This document shows, piece by piece, positions 6,321-35,677 of a stretch of 64,000 bases of DNA. The notes below the pieces were generated by a model that saw nothing but the letters and a program-made list of their open reading frames with translations, was not told where the DNA came from and searched no databases. The position numbers were made by a program, and so were the translations under genes. The stretch's first letter is position 1. Each line of letters opens with the position of its first letter. The stretch is from Rhodoferax sp. (lineage in GTDB: Bacteria; Pseudomonadota; Gammaproteobacteria; Burkholderiales; Burkholderiaceae_C): NCBI GenBank assembly GCA_031291305.1, contig JARLJH010000058.1, positions 62,001-126,000 on the forward strand. Reading direction: 5' to 3'.

Positions 6321-7749
6321 AGCCCCGTCCTTCCTGCATAACATGCTCTGTATTCCGAAGCATCGAAACCAGTTTCCCAGGCACCGCTCCAATCGAGCCC
6401 GCGCCCATGCACAACACCAGGTCACCGTCGCGGGCGTTGTCGATGATGGCTTGCGGCATGGCGGCAATGCTGTCAACAAACACCGGCTCCACTTTGCCCG
6501 CCACCCGCAATGCTCGGGCCAAGGCGCGACCATCGGCGGCCACAATCGGCGCCTCGCCGGCGGCATACACGTCGGTCAGCAGCACCACGTCAGCGACGCT
6601 GATCACCTTGACAAAATCCTCAAAGCAGTCCCGCGTGCGGGTGTAGCGGTGCGGCTGAAACGCCAGCACCAGACGCCGCTCTGGATAAGCACCACGCGCG
6701 GCTGCCAGGGTGGCTGCCATTTCGACCGGGTGGTGACCGTAATCGTCAATGACGCGGAACGTGCCCCCACCCAGCGCAGGCACGTCGCCATAGCTCTGAA
6801 AGCGCCGCCCGACGCCGCCAAAATTGGCCAGCGCACGCTGCACGGCTTCGTCTGGAATATTGAGCTCCACCGCCACGCTGATCGCCGCCAGGGCGTTGAG
6901 CACGTTGTGACGGCCCGCCAGATTCAGCACAACATCCATGTCGGGCAGCGTGACACCATTGCGCCGCTGCACCGTGAAATGCATCTGGCCGCCCACAGCG
7001 CGTACATTGACCGCCCGAACTTCAGCCCCCTCCTCCATGCCATAACTGGTGACCGGGCAGGTCACCTTGGGCAGGATGCTGCGCACGCCAGGATCGTCGG
7101 TGCACAAGATGGCGGTGCCATAAAACGGCATGCGGTGCAGAAAGTCGACAAACGCGCCCTTGAGCCGCTCGATGTCATGGCCATAGGTTTCCATGTGGTC
7201 GGCATCAATGTTGGTCACCACCGCCATCACCGGCAACAGGTGCAGGAACGACGCGTCCGACTCATCGGCCTCGACCACGATGTGGTCGCCTTTGCCCAGG
7301 CGGGCGTTGGCACCGGCGCTGTTGAGGCGCCCACCAATCACAAAGGTCGGGTCCAGGTCACCCGCTTCCAGCACGCTGGTCACCAGACTGGTGGTGGTGG
7401 TTTTGCCGTGGGTGCCAGCGATGGCAATGCCTTGCTTCAAGCGCATCAGCTCGGCCAGCATCAGGGCGCGGGGCACCAGGGGAATGTGTTTTTCGCGGGC
7501 TGCCAGCACCTCGGGGTTGTCGGCCTTGACGGCGGTGGAGGTGACCACCGCGTCAGCGCCTTCAACATGAGCCGGTGCATGTCCGATATACGTGGTGATG
7601 CCCAGGCCTTTCAAACGCTGCAACACGGCGCCGTCGGCAATATCGGAGCCGGAAATGGTGTAGCCCAGCGTGTACAGCACCTCGGCAATGGCCGACATGC
7701 CCGAGCCGCCGATGCCGACAAAGTGGATATGTTTGATGGCGTGCTTCAT
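6307..7749 (-). CDS. murC: UDP-N-acetylmuramate--L-alanine ligase MurC
   Basis: A cytoplasmic Mur ligase of 480 residues adding L-Ala to UDP-MurNAc. An N-terminal Rossmann motif [16 protein letters not shown] (10-25), the ATP loop GTHGKTTT at 112-119 and the family ExxxSDASF-type segment [14 protein letters not shown] are visible, with the C-terminal ligase domain carrying [14 protein letters not shown]. Length is normal. Its ATG overlaps the murG stop (ATGA, 7746-7749) and its 3' end overlaps ddlB by 14 bp, so translation is probably coupled along murG-murC-ddlB-ftsQ. Confidence 0.98.
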
Positions 7750-8822
7750 AAACTAAGCTCCTCACAGGCCGTCACCATCTGCGCAGTGGCATCAAGTTTT
7801 TGCATCATTTTGGCCTTTAGCCCTTTATTCATAAGTACAGTACGCTTCATATTCTGTAGCATTTCTGCCAGCGACTGCGGTGTCAACTCAGTCTGCGGCA
7901 CCAGCCAGCCAGCCCCTTGATCTACCAGGAAGCGTGCGTTGGCGCTCTGGTGGTCGTCCACGGCGGACGGCAGCGGCACAAACAAAGCCGCCGCGCCTAC
8001 GGCGGCAATCTCGGTCACTGTGCTTGCGCCAGCGCGGCAGATGATCAAATCAGCATCGGCAAAAGCCTGCGCCGTGTTGTCGATGAACGGGGTCAGTTCG
8101 GCCGCCACACCTGCCTGCGCGTAGTTGGCACGCAGCGCATCGATTTGCTTGGCACCGCTTTGATGCAGCACGCTGGGGCGCTGCTCAGCGGGCAGCAGCG
8201 CCAGCGCTTGCGGCACGATCTCGTTGAGCGCTTTGGCGCCCAGACTGCCCCCGACCACCAGCACCCTCAAAGGCCCGCTGCGCCCGGCAAAGCGCTGTTC
8301 AGGTAGCGGCTGGTTCAAAAATGCCGCGCGCAGTGGATTGCCCACCCAGCGAGCGCCCTTGAGGACGTTGGGGAAAGCGGTGAAAACCCGACTTGCCACG
8401 CCAGCCAGCACCTTATTGGCCAGCCCTGCGACCGAGTTCTGCTCATGCAGGAGGAGCGGTTTGCCCAGCAAGACGGCCATCATGCCTGCCGGAAAGGTGA
8501 TGTAGCCGCCAAGCCCCACCACCACATCGGGCTTGACACGGCGCAACACCTGAATGCTCTGCCAAAACGCCTTCAGCAGGCGCAGCGGCAACAGCGCCAG
8601 CGTGATGACCCCCTTGCCGCGCAGGCCACCAAAGTCAATCGACTCGAATGCAAAGCCTTGCGGCGGCACCAGCTGGCTTTCCATGCTGGGCTGGCCTGGT
8701 TTGCCACGGCCACCGAGCCAATGCACGCGCCAGCCTTTGTCACGCAGCGCTTGCGCCACCGCCAGGCCTGGAAAGATGTGGCCACCGGTGCCACCGGCCA
8801 TGATCAAGGCGCACTTGCTCAT
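7746..8822 (-). CDS. murG: Lipid II synthase MurG (UDP-GlcNAc transferase)
   Basis: A GT28 glycosyltransferase of 358 residues at the inner face of the membrane that converts lipid I to lipid II. The N-terminal G loop [19 protein letters not shown], a second glycine loop [14 protein letters not shown] and the donor site [23 protein letters not shown] are present. Residues of about 320-345 near the C-terminus ([17 protein letters not shown]) are unusually Met/Lys-rich, and the DNA there (7801-7860) resembles a decayed copy of the dispersed palindromic repeat. The start ATG lies inside the duplicated palindromic block at the ftsW joint; the Shine-Dalgarno GGAGG is also inside that block. Confidence 0.97.
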
Positions 8823-8995
8823 ACACGGCCTCCGTGCATGAGACAGGCCGCTGACGCGCCTGTCGCGCTACGCGCTTGGGTTCCATTTTGGTGAAACAGA
8901 ACTCTCATACACGGCCTCCGTGCATGAGCCAGGCCGCTGACGCGCCCTGTCGCGCTACGCGCATAGGTTCCGTTTTGGTGAAACCGCACTCTCAT
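8819..8995 (-). CDS. 58-codon linker ORF between ftsW and murG, built from duplicated DNA
   Basis: The ftsW stop TGA overlaps an ATG at 8995 that opens a 58-codon frame. The frame stays open across two near-identical 29-codon halves ([17 protein letters not shown]... then [17 protein letters not shown]...) and closes with a TGA overlapping the murG ATG at 8822. Each half is preceded by GGAGG, 7 bases before its ATG. The final LMHGGRV repeats the last seven residues of FtsW. The first unit is 87 bp (in frame) and the second 86 bp, so only the second joint restores the ATGA arrangement for murG. Whether a peptide is made is unknown. The ORF may simply preserve translational coupling across an insertion. 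No family resemblance is seen. Confidence 0.45.
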
Positions 8996-9015
8996 ACACG
9001 GCCTCCGTGCATGAG
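8820..9015. repeat. Three tandem copies of a 23-bp palindromic block, period 86-87 bp
   Basis: Identical 23-bp blocks (beginning CATACACGGCCTCCG on the plus strand) lie at 8820-8842, 8906-8928 and 8993-9015. The 63- and 64-bp segments between them differ by only about seven bases and one indel. On the coding strand every block carries GGAGG plus an ATGA, so the gene boundary itself has been copied. The third block, nearest ftsW, is the natural ftsW 3' end. Confidence 0.92.
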
Positions 9016-9025
9016 AGTGCGGTTT
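8981..9025. repeat. 45-bp near-perfect palindrome across the ftsW stop codon
   Basis: The arms AAACCGCACTCTCAT (8981-8995) and ATGAGAGTGCGGTTT (9011-9025) are exact reverse complements. The intervening 15 bases are themselves largely palindromic (CACGG/CCGTG). The right arm is ftsW coding sequence (codons for NRTLM); the left arm is its inverted copy just past the stop. In mRNA this would form a strong hairpin covering the FtsW C-terminal codons and the next start codon. Confidence 0.85.
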
Positions 9026-10260
9026 TCTTGATCAATTCTCAGCACCACGGCGATGGCGGCTAAGTTGATCAGGATGGCCGAGCCGCCGTAGCTCATCAGC
9101 GGCAGGGTCAGGCCTTTGGTGGGCAGTGCACCCAGGTTCACGCCCATGTTGATAAAGGACTGAAACCCCATCCACACCGCCACACCCTGCGCCACCAAAC
9201 CGGCGAACACACGGTCCAGCGCAATCGCCTGGCGGCCGATGGACATCATGCGCCGCACCATCCACAAGAACAGGGCAATCACGATGACCACACCAACCAG
9301 GCCGAATTCCTCGCCGATCACCGCCAGCAAAAAGTCGGTATGCGCCTCAGGCAGCCAGTTGAGCTTTTCCACACTGCCACCCAGGCCGACGCCAAAAATC
9401 TCGCCACGCCCGATGGCGATCAGCGCGTGCGTCAGCTGGTAGCCCTTGGCCAGCGCATTGGTTTCGCTCCACGGATCCAGGTAGGCAAAGATGCGTTCGC
9501 GCCGCCATGGGCTGGAGGCGATCATCAAGCTGAAAGCCACCAGCAACACCGCAGCAATCAAAAAGAACATGCGTGCATTGACGCCGCCCAGAAACAGGAT
9601 GCCCATGGCGATCACCGCAATCACCATGAAGGCACCCATGTCGGGCTCGGCCAGCAGCAACACACCCATCACCGCCACCGCAGCGCCCATGGGCAGCACG
9701 GCGCGGAAGAAGCGCTCTTTCACATCCATCTTGCGCACCATGTAGTCAGCGGCATACAGCAGCACGGTGAACTTGGCCAGCTCAGACGGCTGAAAGCTGA
9801 TCGGGCCCAAGCCAATCCAGCGGCGCGCGCCGTACACCACCTTGCCCAGATGCGGTATCAACACCAACACCAGCAAGGCAATGGAAATCAGAAACAGTGG
9901 CCGCGCCATCTTTTCCCAGACACTCAGCGGCACCTGATAGGCCAGCAGCGCGCCGACAAAAGAGATCAGCAACCACATGATGTGGCGAATCAGAAAGTAG
10001 GTAGGGGTGTAGTTGGCAAAACGCGGGTTTTCCGGCATGGCAATGGATGCCGAATAAACCATCACCAGCCCCCACAGCAACAGCGTCGCTGTGACCCAGA
10101 ACAGCGGCTGGTCAAACCCCTGTGCGCGCATGGGCACAGAACCGGTGGACGCCAGCCGGGTCGCGCCCAGGCGCACCGGCAGCACGTCACCCGCTGGCGT
10201 GCTCAGCCCCATGCCACGCTGGCGCAGGCGCTGGATGAAGCTGGGCTGGCGATGGCTCAT
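8992..10260 (-). CDS. ftsW: Lipid II polymerase FtsW (SEDS family)
   Basis: A SEDS glycosyltransferase of 422 residues with about ten transmembrane helices that polymerises septal peptidoglycan with FtsI. An N-terminal cytoplasmic segment of ~45 residues precedes the first helix. SEDS signatures include [19 protein letters not shown], the periplasmic [19 protein letters not shown] segment and the C-terminal [16 protein letters not shown]. The last residues [11 protein letters not shown] are encoded by the palindromic block that has been duplicated downstream. Its ATG overlaps the murD stop (ATGA at 10257-10260). Confidence 0.97.
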
Positions 10261-35236: not shown

Positions 35237-35238
35237 GT

Positions 35239-35677
35239 GTGAAGCCCACCGATAAGCCGGATTCTGTGCGCCCGGGTTTCCCCAGGCGTGACTGCCATTA
35301 ATCTGGGCCACTGATCACTCAGTGGCTCGGTGCTACCTACCCGCCAACTCCGGGGGCCCCGTCAACGTTGGCCTACTTGGTATTGCTGCGCGTAGAGATT
35401 GCCCGTTTCACCCATTGCAGGCAGAGCCCGCTATGGATGGCTATGCGCTCCCGGTTACCCGGGGGCTGGCTTGCGCCAACCTACACACATAGAACACCCG
35501 AAACAGGATACCTACGCCGACTCGTCTCTGTTGCTCTGATCCTCACCTTATACCCAGGCCTTGCGGCTCAGGCTTTCAGTGGACAGCCGTTAGCTGCTAC
35601 GCTGCCCTATGCAGTCCGGACGTTCCTCCAGTGCTCTGTTTCCAGAATTGCACCAGCGGCAGTCTGGCGGGCTTCAC
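35239..35677 (-). ncRNA. rnpB: RNase P RNA, bacterial type A
   Basis: The minus strand reads from the P1 5' arm GTGAAGCCCGCC (35,677 down) to the 3' arm GGTGGGCTTCAC (35,239-35,250), which pair over 12 bp. Conserved blocks are present: GAGGAACGTCCGGACT with GCATAGGGCAG, CAGCTAACGGCTG, AGGGTGAAACGG-like ATGGGTGAAACGGGC, GTAGGCCAACG, and the terminal CACAGAATCCGGCTTATCGG. About 439 nt, somewhat longer than typical. A GATAAT box (35,684-35,689) sits where the -10 would be. It is transcribed opposite to its neighbours. Confidence 0.95.

Follow-up and report, generated by a model that had tools for sequence, protein, structure and literature searches.

The DNA analysed here, a 64,000-nucleotide stretch of a Rhodoferax sp. 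contig (the window), carries on its minus strand the cell-division and cell-wall cluster murD-ftsW-linker-murG-murC; the genes were named by recognition and through ortholog searches. The ftsW gene (8992..10260, placed from the open reading frame list and ortholog joints) and the murG gene (7746..8822) are separated by the linker, an ORF of 58 codons (8819..8995) composed of two fused 29-codon units. As the original prediction proposed, this ORF overlaps the ftsW stop at one end and the murG start at the other, each time by ATGA. (Elsewhere in the window, an ordinary class A RNase P RNA lies at 35237-35675 on the same strand.)

The joint contains a 25-bp near-palindrome, CTCATACACGGCCTCCGTGCATGAG, three times without a mismatch. 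Each copy offers GGAGG and ATGA on the minus strand, which makes it a ready coupling site. P1 (8991-9015) is the native 3' end of ftsW: read on the coding strand, it spells the last codons of that gene (LMHGGRV and stop), its SD is GGAGG, and its ATGA joins the ftsW stop to the linker start. The identical P2 (8904-8928), at the border between units 1 and 2, is read through in frame, and P3 (8818-8842), also identical, holds the linker stop and the murG start. No further copy with up to three mismatches occurs in the window, and 100 dinucleotide shuffles likewise yielded none. The predicted identical blocks, together with their GGAGG and ATGA, are real, except that they measure 25 bp instead of 23 bp and are shifted by 2. 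Spacing between palindromes is 87 bp for unit 1 and 86 bp for unit 2. The intervening stretches (62 and 61 bp) share 55 of 62 alignment columns, with 6 mismatches and 1 gap; counted with their palindromes, the two copies are 94% identical across 112 nt.

Further elements make up the joint. Arm A (9013..9027; codons GAAAACCGCACTCTC) belongs to ftsW itself, whose last codons form this arm and the first palindrome. Arm A' of unit 1 (8980..8994) is the reverse complement of A and starts at the ftsW stop codon; A'' (8967..8978; CAAAACGGAACC) is a decayed direct copy of A; hairpin 2 (8951..8961) and hairpin 3 (8930..8949; CAGG..CCTG) complete the unit. Unit 2 has its own A' (8893..8905), followed by A'' and hairpins 2 and 3 (8844..8891), all again on the minus strand. 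The inverted copy of ftsW coding sequence foreseen at the ftsW stop forms an inverted repeat with 21-nt arms (8981-9001 and 9005-9025) that are 95% complementary around a 3-nt loop, and folds with the ftsW end into a stem of about 21 bp. The window joint as a whole folds much more stably than its shuffles do (z -8.5). Relatives share the plan of the unit: arm A, the SD/ATGA palindrome, A', A'', then hairpins rich in GC, and finally the ftsW tail once more, closed by ATGA. One segment is present in the order direct-inverted-direct (A, A', A''), with A'' decayed. Because the unit ends with the tail copy, GGAGG and ATGA are rebuilt beside murG.

Absence of the unit from relatives, which would have argued for a purely local event, is not what was found: searches of the genus, by covariance model and with 112 nt of DNA as query, located it in 14 of 89 genomes, the window's own counted (E <1e-10, among the best 40 candidates per genome), in every case between ftsW and murG. 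The usual form is a single 86-bp unit. Two units are present in R. antarcticus (L076, and L026 with the same sequence), in L028, where they are fused in frame as in the window, and in L029, where they are separately coupled; overall, relatives carry from one to three tandem copies. R. antarcticus ANT.BR and Curvibacter delicatus are among the bearers of units. The predicted growth by tandem units that bring their own SD and ATGA is supported. The one-base difference between 86 and 87 bp is not the one-off adjustment that it had seemed, since arrays of both kinds occur in relatives, some fused in frame and others coupled separately (2 mod 3). Recurrence in many assemblies, including the 1-contig G005 and the 2-contig G002, rules out an assembly artefact. 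(An apparent second murG start in L030 and L048 is a scaffold duplication at an N-gap, not biology, and in G228 and G442 the array is interrupted by a contig end, as expected of repeats.)

Wider searches return largely to the same joint. At E<=0.1, among the best 8 candidates per genome, 85 of 399 family genomes match, the weak matches including bare palindromes. Both ftsW and murG flank 26 of the 27 loci L157-L183, L174 stopping at a contig edge. Another 35 places in the family comprise 28 with both genes (some with a bare palindrome or a different insert), 4 with one gene, at contig ends, and 3 weak model matches with neither (L188, L190, and L216); L190 is a copy of a longer element type, discussed below, at an argF-like gene, the same place as L351. 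Across the order, matches at E<=0.01 occur in 8 of 399 genomes: two belong to the window's family, and the six from other families all match at ftsW/murG. (In one of these six, L222, only 19 nt separate the two genes, which are not connected.) Besides the 14 genomes of the genus, many of the family carry the unit at this joint.

Does the unit spread to other joints, as the term 'self-propagating' in the original prediction implied? The 4.98-Mb genome contains no second copy, the other 15 of 18 matches spanning 14-25 nt with E of at least 0.26. A query with this unit type (type 1) in 15 genomes gave eight matches of at least 59 nt, all at ftsW/murG; its reach is limited, since the joint itself came up in just 7 of these genomes. 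The term is unsupported for the window unit, since the unit was found at this joint only.

A general rule emerges from the path that ribosomes would follow between the two genes. A one-per-genus family sample of 140 genomes provided 133 usable joints (four genomes had no MurG match; L312, at a contig edge, L281, with an N-gap, and G192, with a partial MurG, were left out). At least 40 nt separate the ftsW stop from the aligned MurG start in 38 of the 133, and all 38 are connected: 7 through a murG N-terminal extension from the ftsW NTGA, and 31 through consecutive ORFs, each linked to the next by an exact NTGA overlap and the last to murG. Lowering the threshold to 20 nt gives 50 connected joints of 50. 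In an approximate null built by Markov resampling, randomised inserts in random phase gave a mean of 21.7 and a maximum of 32 of 50 (400 sets). When the observed phase is kept, openness alone connects 38.1 of 50 on average, and much of the excess therefore sits in the phase. Counting every unique ftsW/murG joint of at least 20 nt, 116 of 116 are connected by exact NTGA overlaps (3 with N left out); the 138 joints shorter than 20 nt include two exceptions, L338 and L222. Inserts of unrelated sequence obey as well. Because the insert families differ, the rule concerns the reading path and not the sequence.

The next joint downstream behaves in the same way: inserts of at least 20 nt occur between murG and murC in 11 of 74 loci, and an NTGA-overlapping ORF bridges 11 of 11. 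No insert of that length lies between murD and ftsW in 78 loci. Survival of the insertion through a rebuilt relay of overlaps, as first suggested, is better supported than the original prediction had it (116 of 116 and 11 of 11 joints). PMC10666635 describes termination-reinitiation coupling as strongly distance-dependent and as nearly abolished by a spacing of about 20 nt. Such dependence explains why inserts must be bridged, and would make the rule a necessary one if murG depends on coupling. On the sequence evidence, the original prediction holds as to coupling, and does so generally at the ftsW/murG joint; the linker is predicted to be translated. A literature search found no report of ftsW/murG translational coupling by overlap, and no title that names the joint (subscription papers were mostly outside reach); the passages from PMC2755013 deal with CRISPR.

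Two catalogues accompany these counts. The bridged murG/murC loci are L058, L059, L065, L067, L069, L071, L075, L091, L102, L109, and L127. Another GC-rich repeat at ftsW/murG (..GGGCCGYCCCAAG..AAGCGTGGGG) is an in-frame MurG N-terminal extension, and was noted in L052, L055, L063, L070 (which has the L039 sequence), L103, L107, L110, and L115.

A translated linker might also matter for its product, a peptide of 27-29 residues (MxxLFHQN..LMHGGRV) that would mimic the FtsW carboxyl terminus. Sixteen of the peptides, with a mean column identity of 73%, give an impression of conservation, and their ends resemble that of the host FtsW; the tail in L109 encodes the same amino acids with different codons. 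However, antisense pairing with ftsW codons dictates how they begin; inserts of unrelated sequence are just as well connected; and the fused arrays (the window, L028, L165, L168, L170, and L172) read the later part of their non-final units in another frame. The peptide core, moreover, displays weak third-position bias: across 11 linkers of the genus, differences at codon positions 1/2/3 number 119/132/194 in the core, as compared to 288/46/1140 in nearby ftsW, a pattern that suggests little amino-acid constraint. The tail codons (34/10/157) look protein-constrained, although these bases also carry the SD and ATGA. Searches of the linker against Pfam and NCBIfam returned no family at cut-off, the one sub-threshold match being to TadE (E 0.11). 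The codon-position test weakens a functional peptide as the main reading, and we regard it as highly improbable. Together, weak codon bias, the antisense-forced start, and reading in another frame favour a bridge over a functional peptide.

The arms follow their host gene closely. In 17 aligned units, 93% of paired cells hold standard pairs, and 13 stem pairs have changed on both sides as against 6.3 after shuffling, which ignores relatedness. Among 48 non-redundant linkers (at least 9 of 12 A:A' pairs; 30 different host A sequences), A' makes 10.5 of 12 pairs with its own A and 7.4 with the A of others, a difference reached in 0 of 20000 permutations that ignore relatedness. The stem was part of the model that supplied most of this set, whereas the one-per-genus sample was drawn by MurG alone, and it agrees. 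There, 12 of 133 genera form 9-11 of the 12 A:A' pairs; the joints without such an echo of ftsW reach at most 7 pairs when long (26 joints) and at most 8 when short (95 joints). Own pairing in the 12 echo joints averages 10.4 of 12, cross pairing 7.0 (0 of 10000 permutations). Even the 38 long joints taken together, unselected, have an own-pairing sum of 235, compared with a permutation maximum of 209 (10000 permutations). A'' tracks its host less well than A' (own 8.8, cross 7.4 of 13).

Second units appear to preserve earlier states. The unit 2 arm of the window retains TTCTG, which mismatches this ftsW and is found in the arms of relatives with ftsW AACAGAAC; the window ftsW and the adjacent unit 1 arm agree on a different version (AACCGCAC/GTGCGGTT). 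Similarly, the unit 2 arm of L029 resembles the L030 arm. Both unit 2 arms are older-looking versions. The ftsW-end palindrome is itself stronger in bearers of inserts, which could be cause or effect of the inserts: of 10 pairs, the two echo groups have 9.67 and 9.20, as against 7.25 for the remaining long joints and 6.66 for short ones.

Covarying stems, and stable folds in four relatives (z -4.9 to -9.0) and in the window, invite an RNA-based explanation. The hairpin at the ftsW stop and an alternative A':A'' hairpin (by eye, A' is able to pair with both A and A'') might constitute a switch, a processing site, or an attenuator, a proposal that we consider improbable; that the structure sets MurG relative to FtsW is to be doubted just as strongly. 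The unit is patchily distributed, A'' follows the host less closely than A' does, and the covariation is also expected from correction by template switching. The A:A' covariation fits selection and such correction alike, and cannot separate them. At the joint, no family of Rfam 15 attained its gathering score, and a further comparison produced sub-threshold matches only.

How patchy the echo linkers are was judged from 80 relatives, 11 of which carry one, on a quick tree of FtsW and MurG rows. At least 8 changes are required; tree shuffles averaged 10.5, and 5 of 500 were as low as 8. On this tree the linkers are patchy, with slight clustering. Together with R. ferrireducens A7, R. sp. BLA1, and R. 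antarcticus, all unit bearers, the window forms a starred four-row set. Given this patchiness, and the seeming ease of precise deletion between repeats, selection, regain, or transfer is needed as well.

A second, longer element, type 2, occurs as well. At ftsW/murG it has the form TTTCGGCGCAGGCT-hairpin-hairpin-GCCGNAGCC, repeats the host FtsW tail at its end, and is carried by some genera and by other families. In other genera its core is dispersed, with matches at E<=1e-5 in 53 of 200 family genomes; ftsW/murG copies and tail-only matches are counted among these. Twenty-five long copies occupy 19 of 20 loci (L345-L364), and 18 of the 25 adjoin a flank that is repeated, some of them as tandem copies. 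The repeat is often a gene end, present again beyond the element; by eye, we take these ends to be argF-like in L345 (three in tandem) and L349, acyl-CoA dehydrogenase-like in L355, and metK-like in L357 and L360. Nine copies have an NTGA at the scored stop, and in seven of them (three in L345, one each in L349 and L355, two in L359) an ORF chain reaches the distal copy in the frame of the gene; those in L353 and L354 are unchained. In eight others the scored stop offers no start; L351 and the second L346 copy, both among these, are uninformative because the wrong stop was scored. One has no stop in the repeat, and seven are without a repeated flank.

Two further observations concern these loci. 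In L352 and L356, two copies of the type-2 core lie inside a gene that by eye is RND-type transporter-like (DDAIVMxENI). Near the metK-like array, L360:863-950 matches the Twister-sister ribozyme at 27 bits, below the gathering score of 34, probably by chance.

These dispersed copies open another origin for the linker, as a degenerate member of a dispersed, structured, MIRU-like mobile element that would move in a way of its own and settle at gene 3' ends. Each insertion would adjoin a direct copy of the gene end, leaving the gene and its coupling intact. Dispersal of the type-2 core at the ends of other genes, with repeated flanks and tandem copies, speaks for such an origin, and L183 combines the type-2 core with an extra hairpin, so that by eye type 1 could be type 2 minus its core. 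On the other side, the window's genome contains neither a type-2 match nor a second copy of its own unit; long type-1 matches in the 15 genomes lie at ftsW/murG alone, within the limited recovery given above; and a repeated flank went undetected in 7 of the 25 type-2 copies. The inverted arm is weak at the other type-2 copies: by local alignment, 1 of 25 beats 50 shuffles, and flanks pair at -8.7 kcal with their own element as compared to -7.1 kcal across elements (19 loci; 187 of 20000 permutations as low). Nine type-2 copies at ftsW display no preference for pairing with their own host. We judge this origin unlikely, if worth keeping in mind.

A broader form of it is about as doubtful: type 2 may represent an undescribed class of mobile 'gene-end echo' elements in the Burkholderiales, the window array being a stripped, locally amplified descendant. 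In this tentative scheme, a gene-end echo would consist of a structured core together with the gene end copied once more in direct orientation, which rebuilds the SD and the stop/start overlap and renders the insertion translationally silent. At ftsW, an inverted copy might also be made and become the stem of the element, again a speculative step. We lowered our estimate for the scheme because the inverted arm is weakly supported at other genes.

The reading that we prefer, and hold to be probable, is that the window joint holds a two-unit tandem array in which the end of ftsW was duplicated on a hairpin template, and that such copies persist only where they serve as translated bridges. The SD and ATGA site that closes ftsW already forms a palindrome, at which replication could switch templates; such switching would have given the inverted copy (A') and the direct copy (A'' plus the tail), with GC-rich hairpins between them. 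The joints themselves exhibit the second step: the only forms met are those with an ORF path from the ftsW NTGA into murG. By established coupling biology, ribosomes that finish ftsW would then reinitiate on the linker, and afterward on murG, so that the linker peptide would be mostly a by-product. Unequal exchange or slippage between the identical palindromes may gain and lose units. Finally, template switching, which according to parts of PMC8794818 is able to create and maintain hairpins, may re-copy one arm from the other; the covariation is observed and this cause is proposed, and it would explain why the ftsW-proximal hairpin is near perfect. A possible further contribution is selection to keep the SD hidden in structure until the ribosome arrives. 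The GC-rich hairpins remain beyond what simple duplication of ftsW accounts for.

How tightly genome change is bound by coupled translation can be gauged at this joint, as a clean natural experiment: insertions have occurred repeatedly between ftsW and murG, and each scored insert of at least 20 nt forms a connected path. Moreover, the arm covariation may stem from mutation, through template switching, and not from selection on RNA, which advises caution in equating covariation with function. The dispersed longer type suggests a harmless mode of insertion, in which the element arrives with a copy of the gene end that it disturbs.

Several known systems resemble parts of this arrangement. Exact 4-nt overlaps are shared with termination-reinitiation coupling at ATGA and NTGA, whose known cases are direct gene-gene overlaps, whereas here inserted DNA constitutes a bridging chain of ORFs. 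The high-copy palindromes of 20-40 bp that characterize REP/BIME elements with RAYT are not seen here: the palindrome occurs three times in the window, and the unit lies at one joint of the genome. Rickettsia palindromic elements demonstrate that palindromic inserts are tolerated in reading frames, and form dispersed families inside ORFs; the window unit differs in lying between two genes, at one locus. Tandem inversion duplications have the direct-inverted-direct order seen in A, A', and A''. Quasipalindrome template switching, as described in parts of PMC8794818, likewise involves inverted copies that form or mend stems. In comparison with both processes, the events here are on the scale of a gene joint, recur in many genera at one joint, and include extra GC-rich hairpins.

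The mycobacterial MIRUs, which Supply et al. reportedly described in 1997 as occurring in tandem copies, inserted at DTGA sites, with overlaps at both ends, come closest. Both are short tandem units of variable copy number (here 86/87 bp and 1-3 copies), and in both the ORF of the unit is coupled to its neighbours by 4-nt overlaps, here as read from sequence. Judged by plan and by the account of them in PMC12548453, they are the nearest known kind, and the likeness lies in how they work. MIRUs are dispersed at many loci, whereas the unit occupies a single locus in the window's genome, and here the insert carries inverted and direct copies of the end of its host gene, with a long hairpin that tracks that gene.
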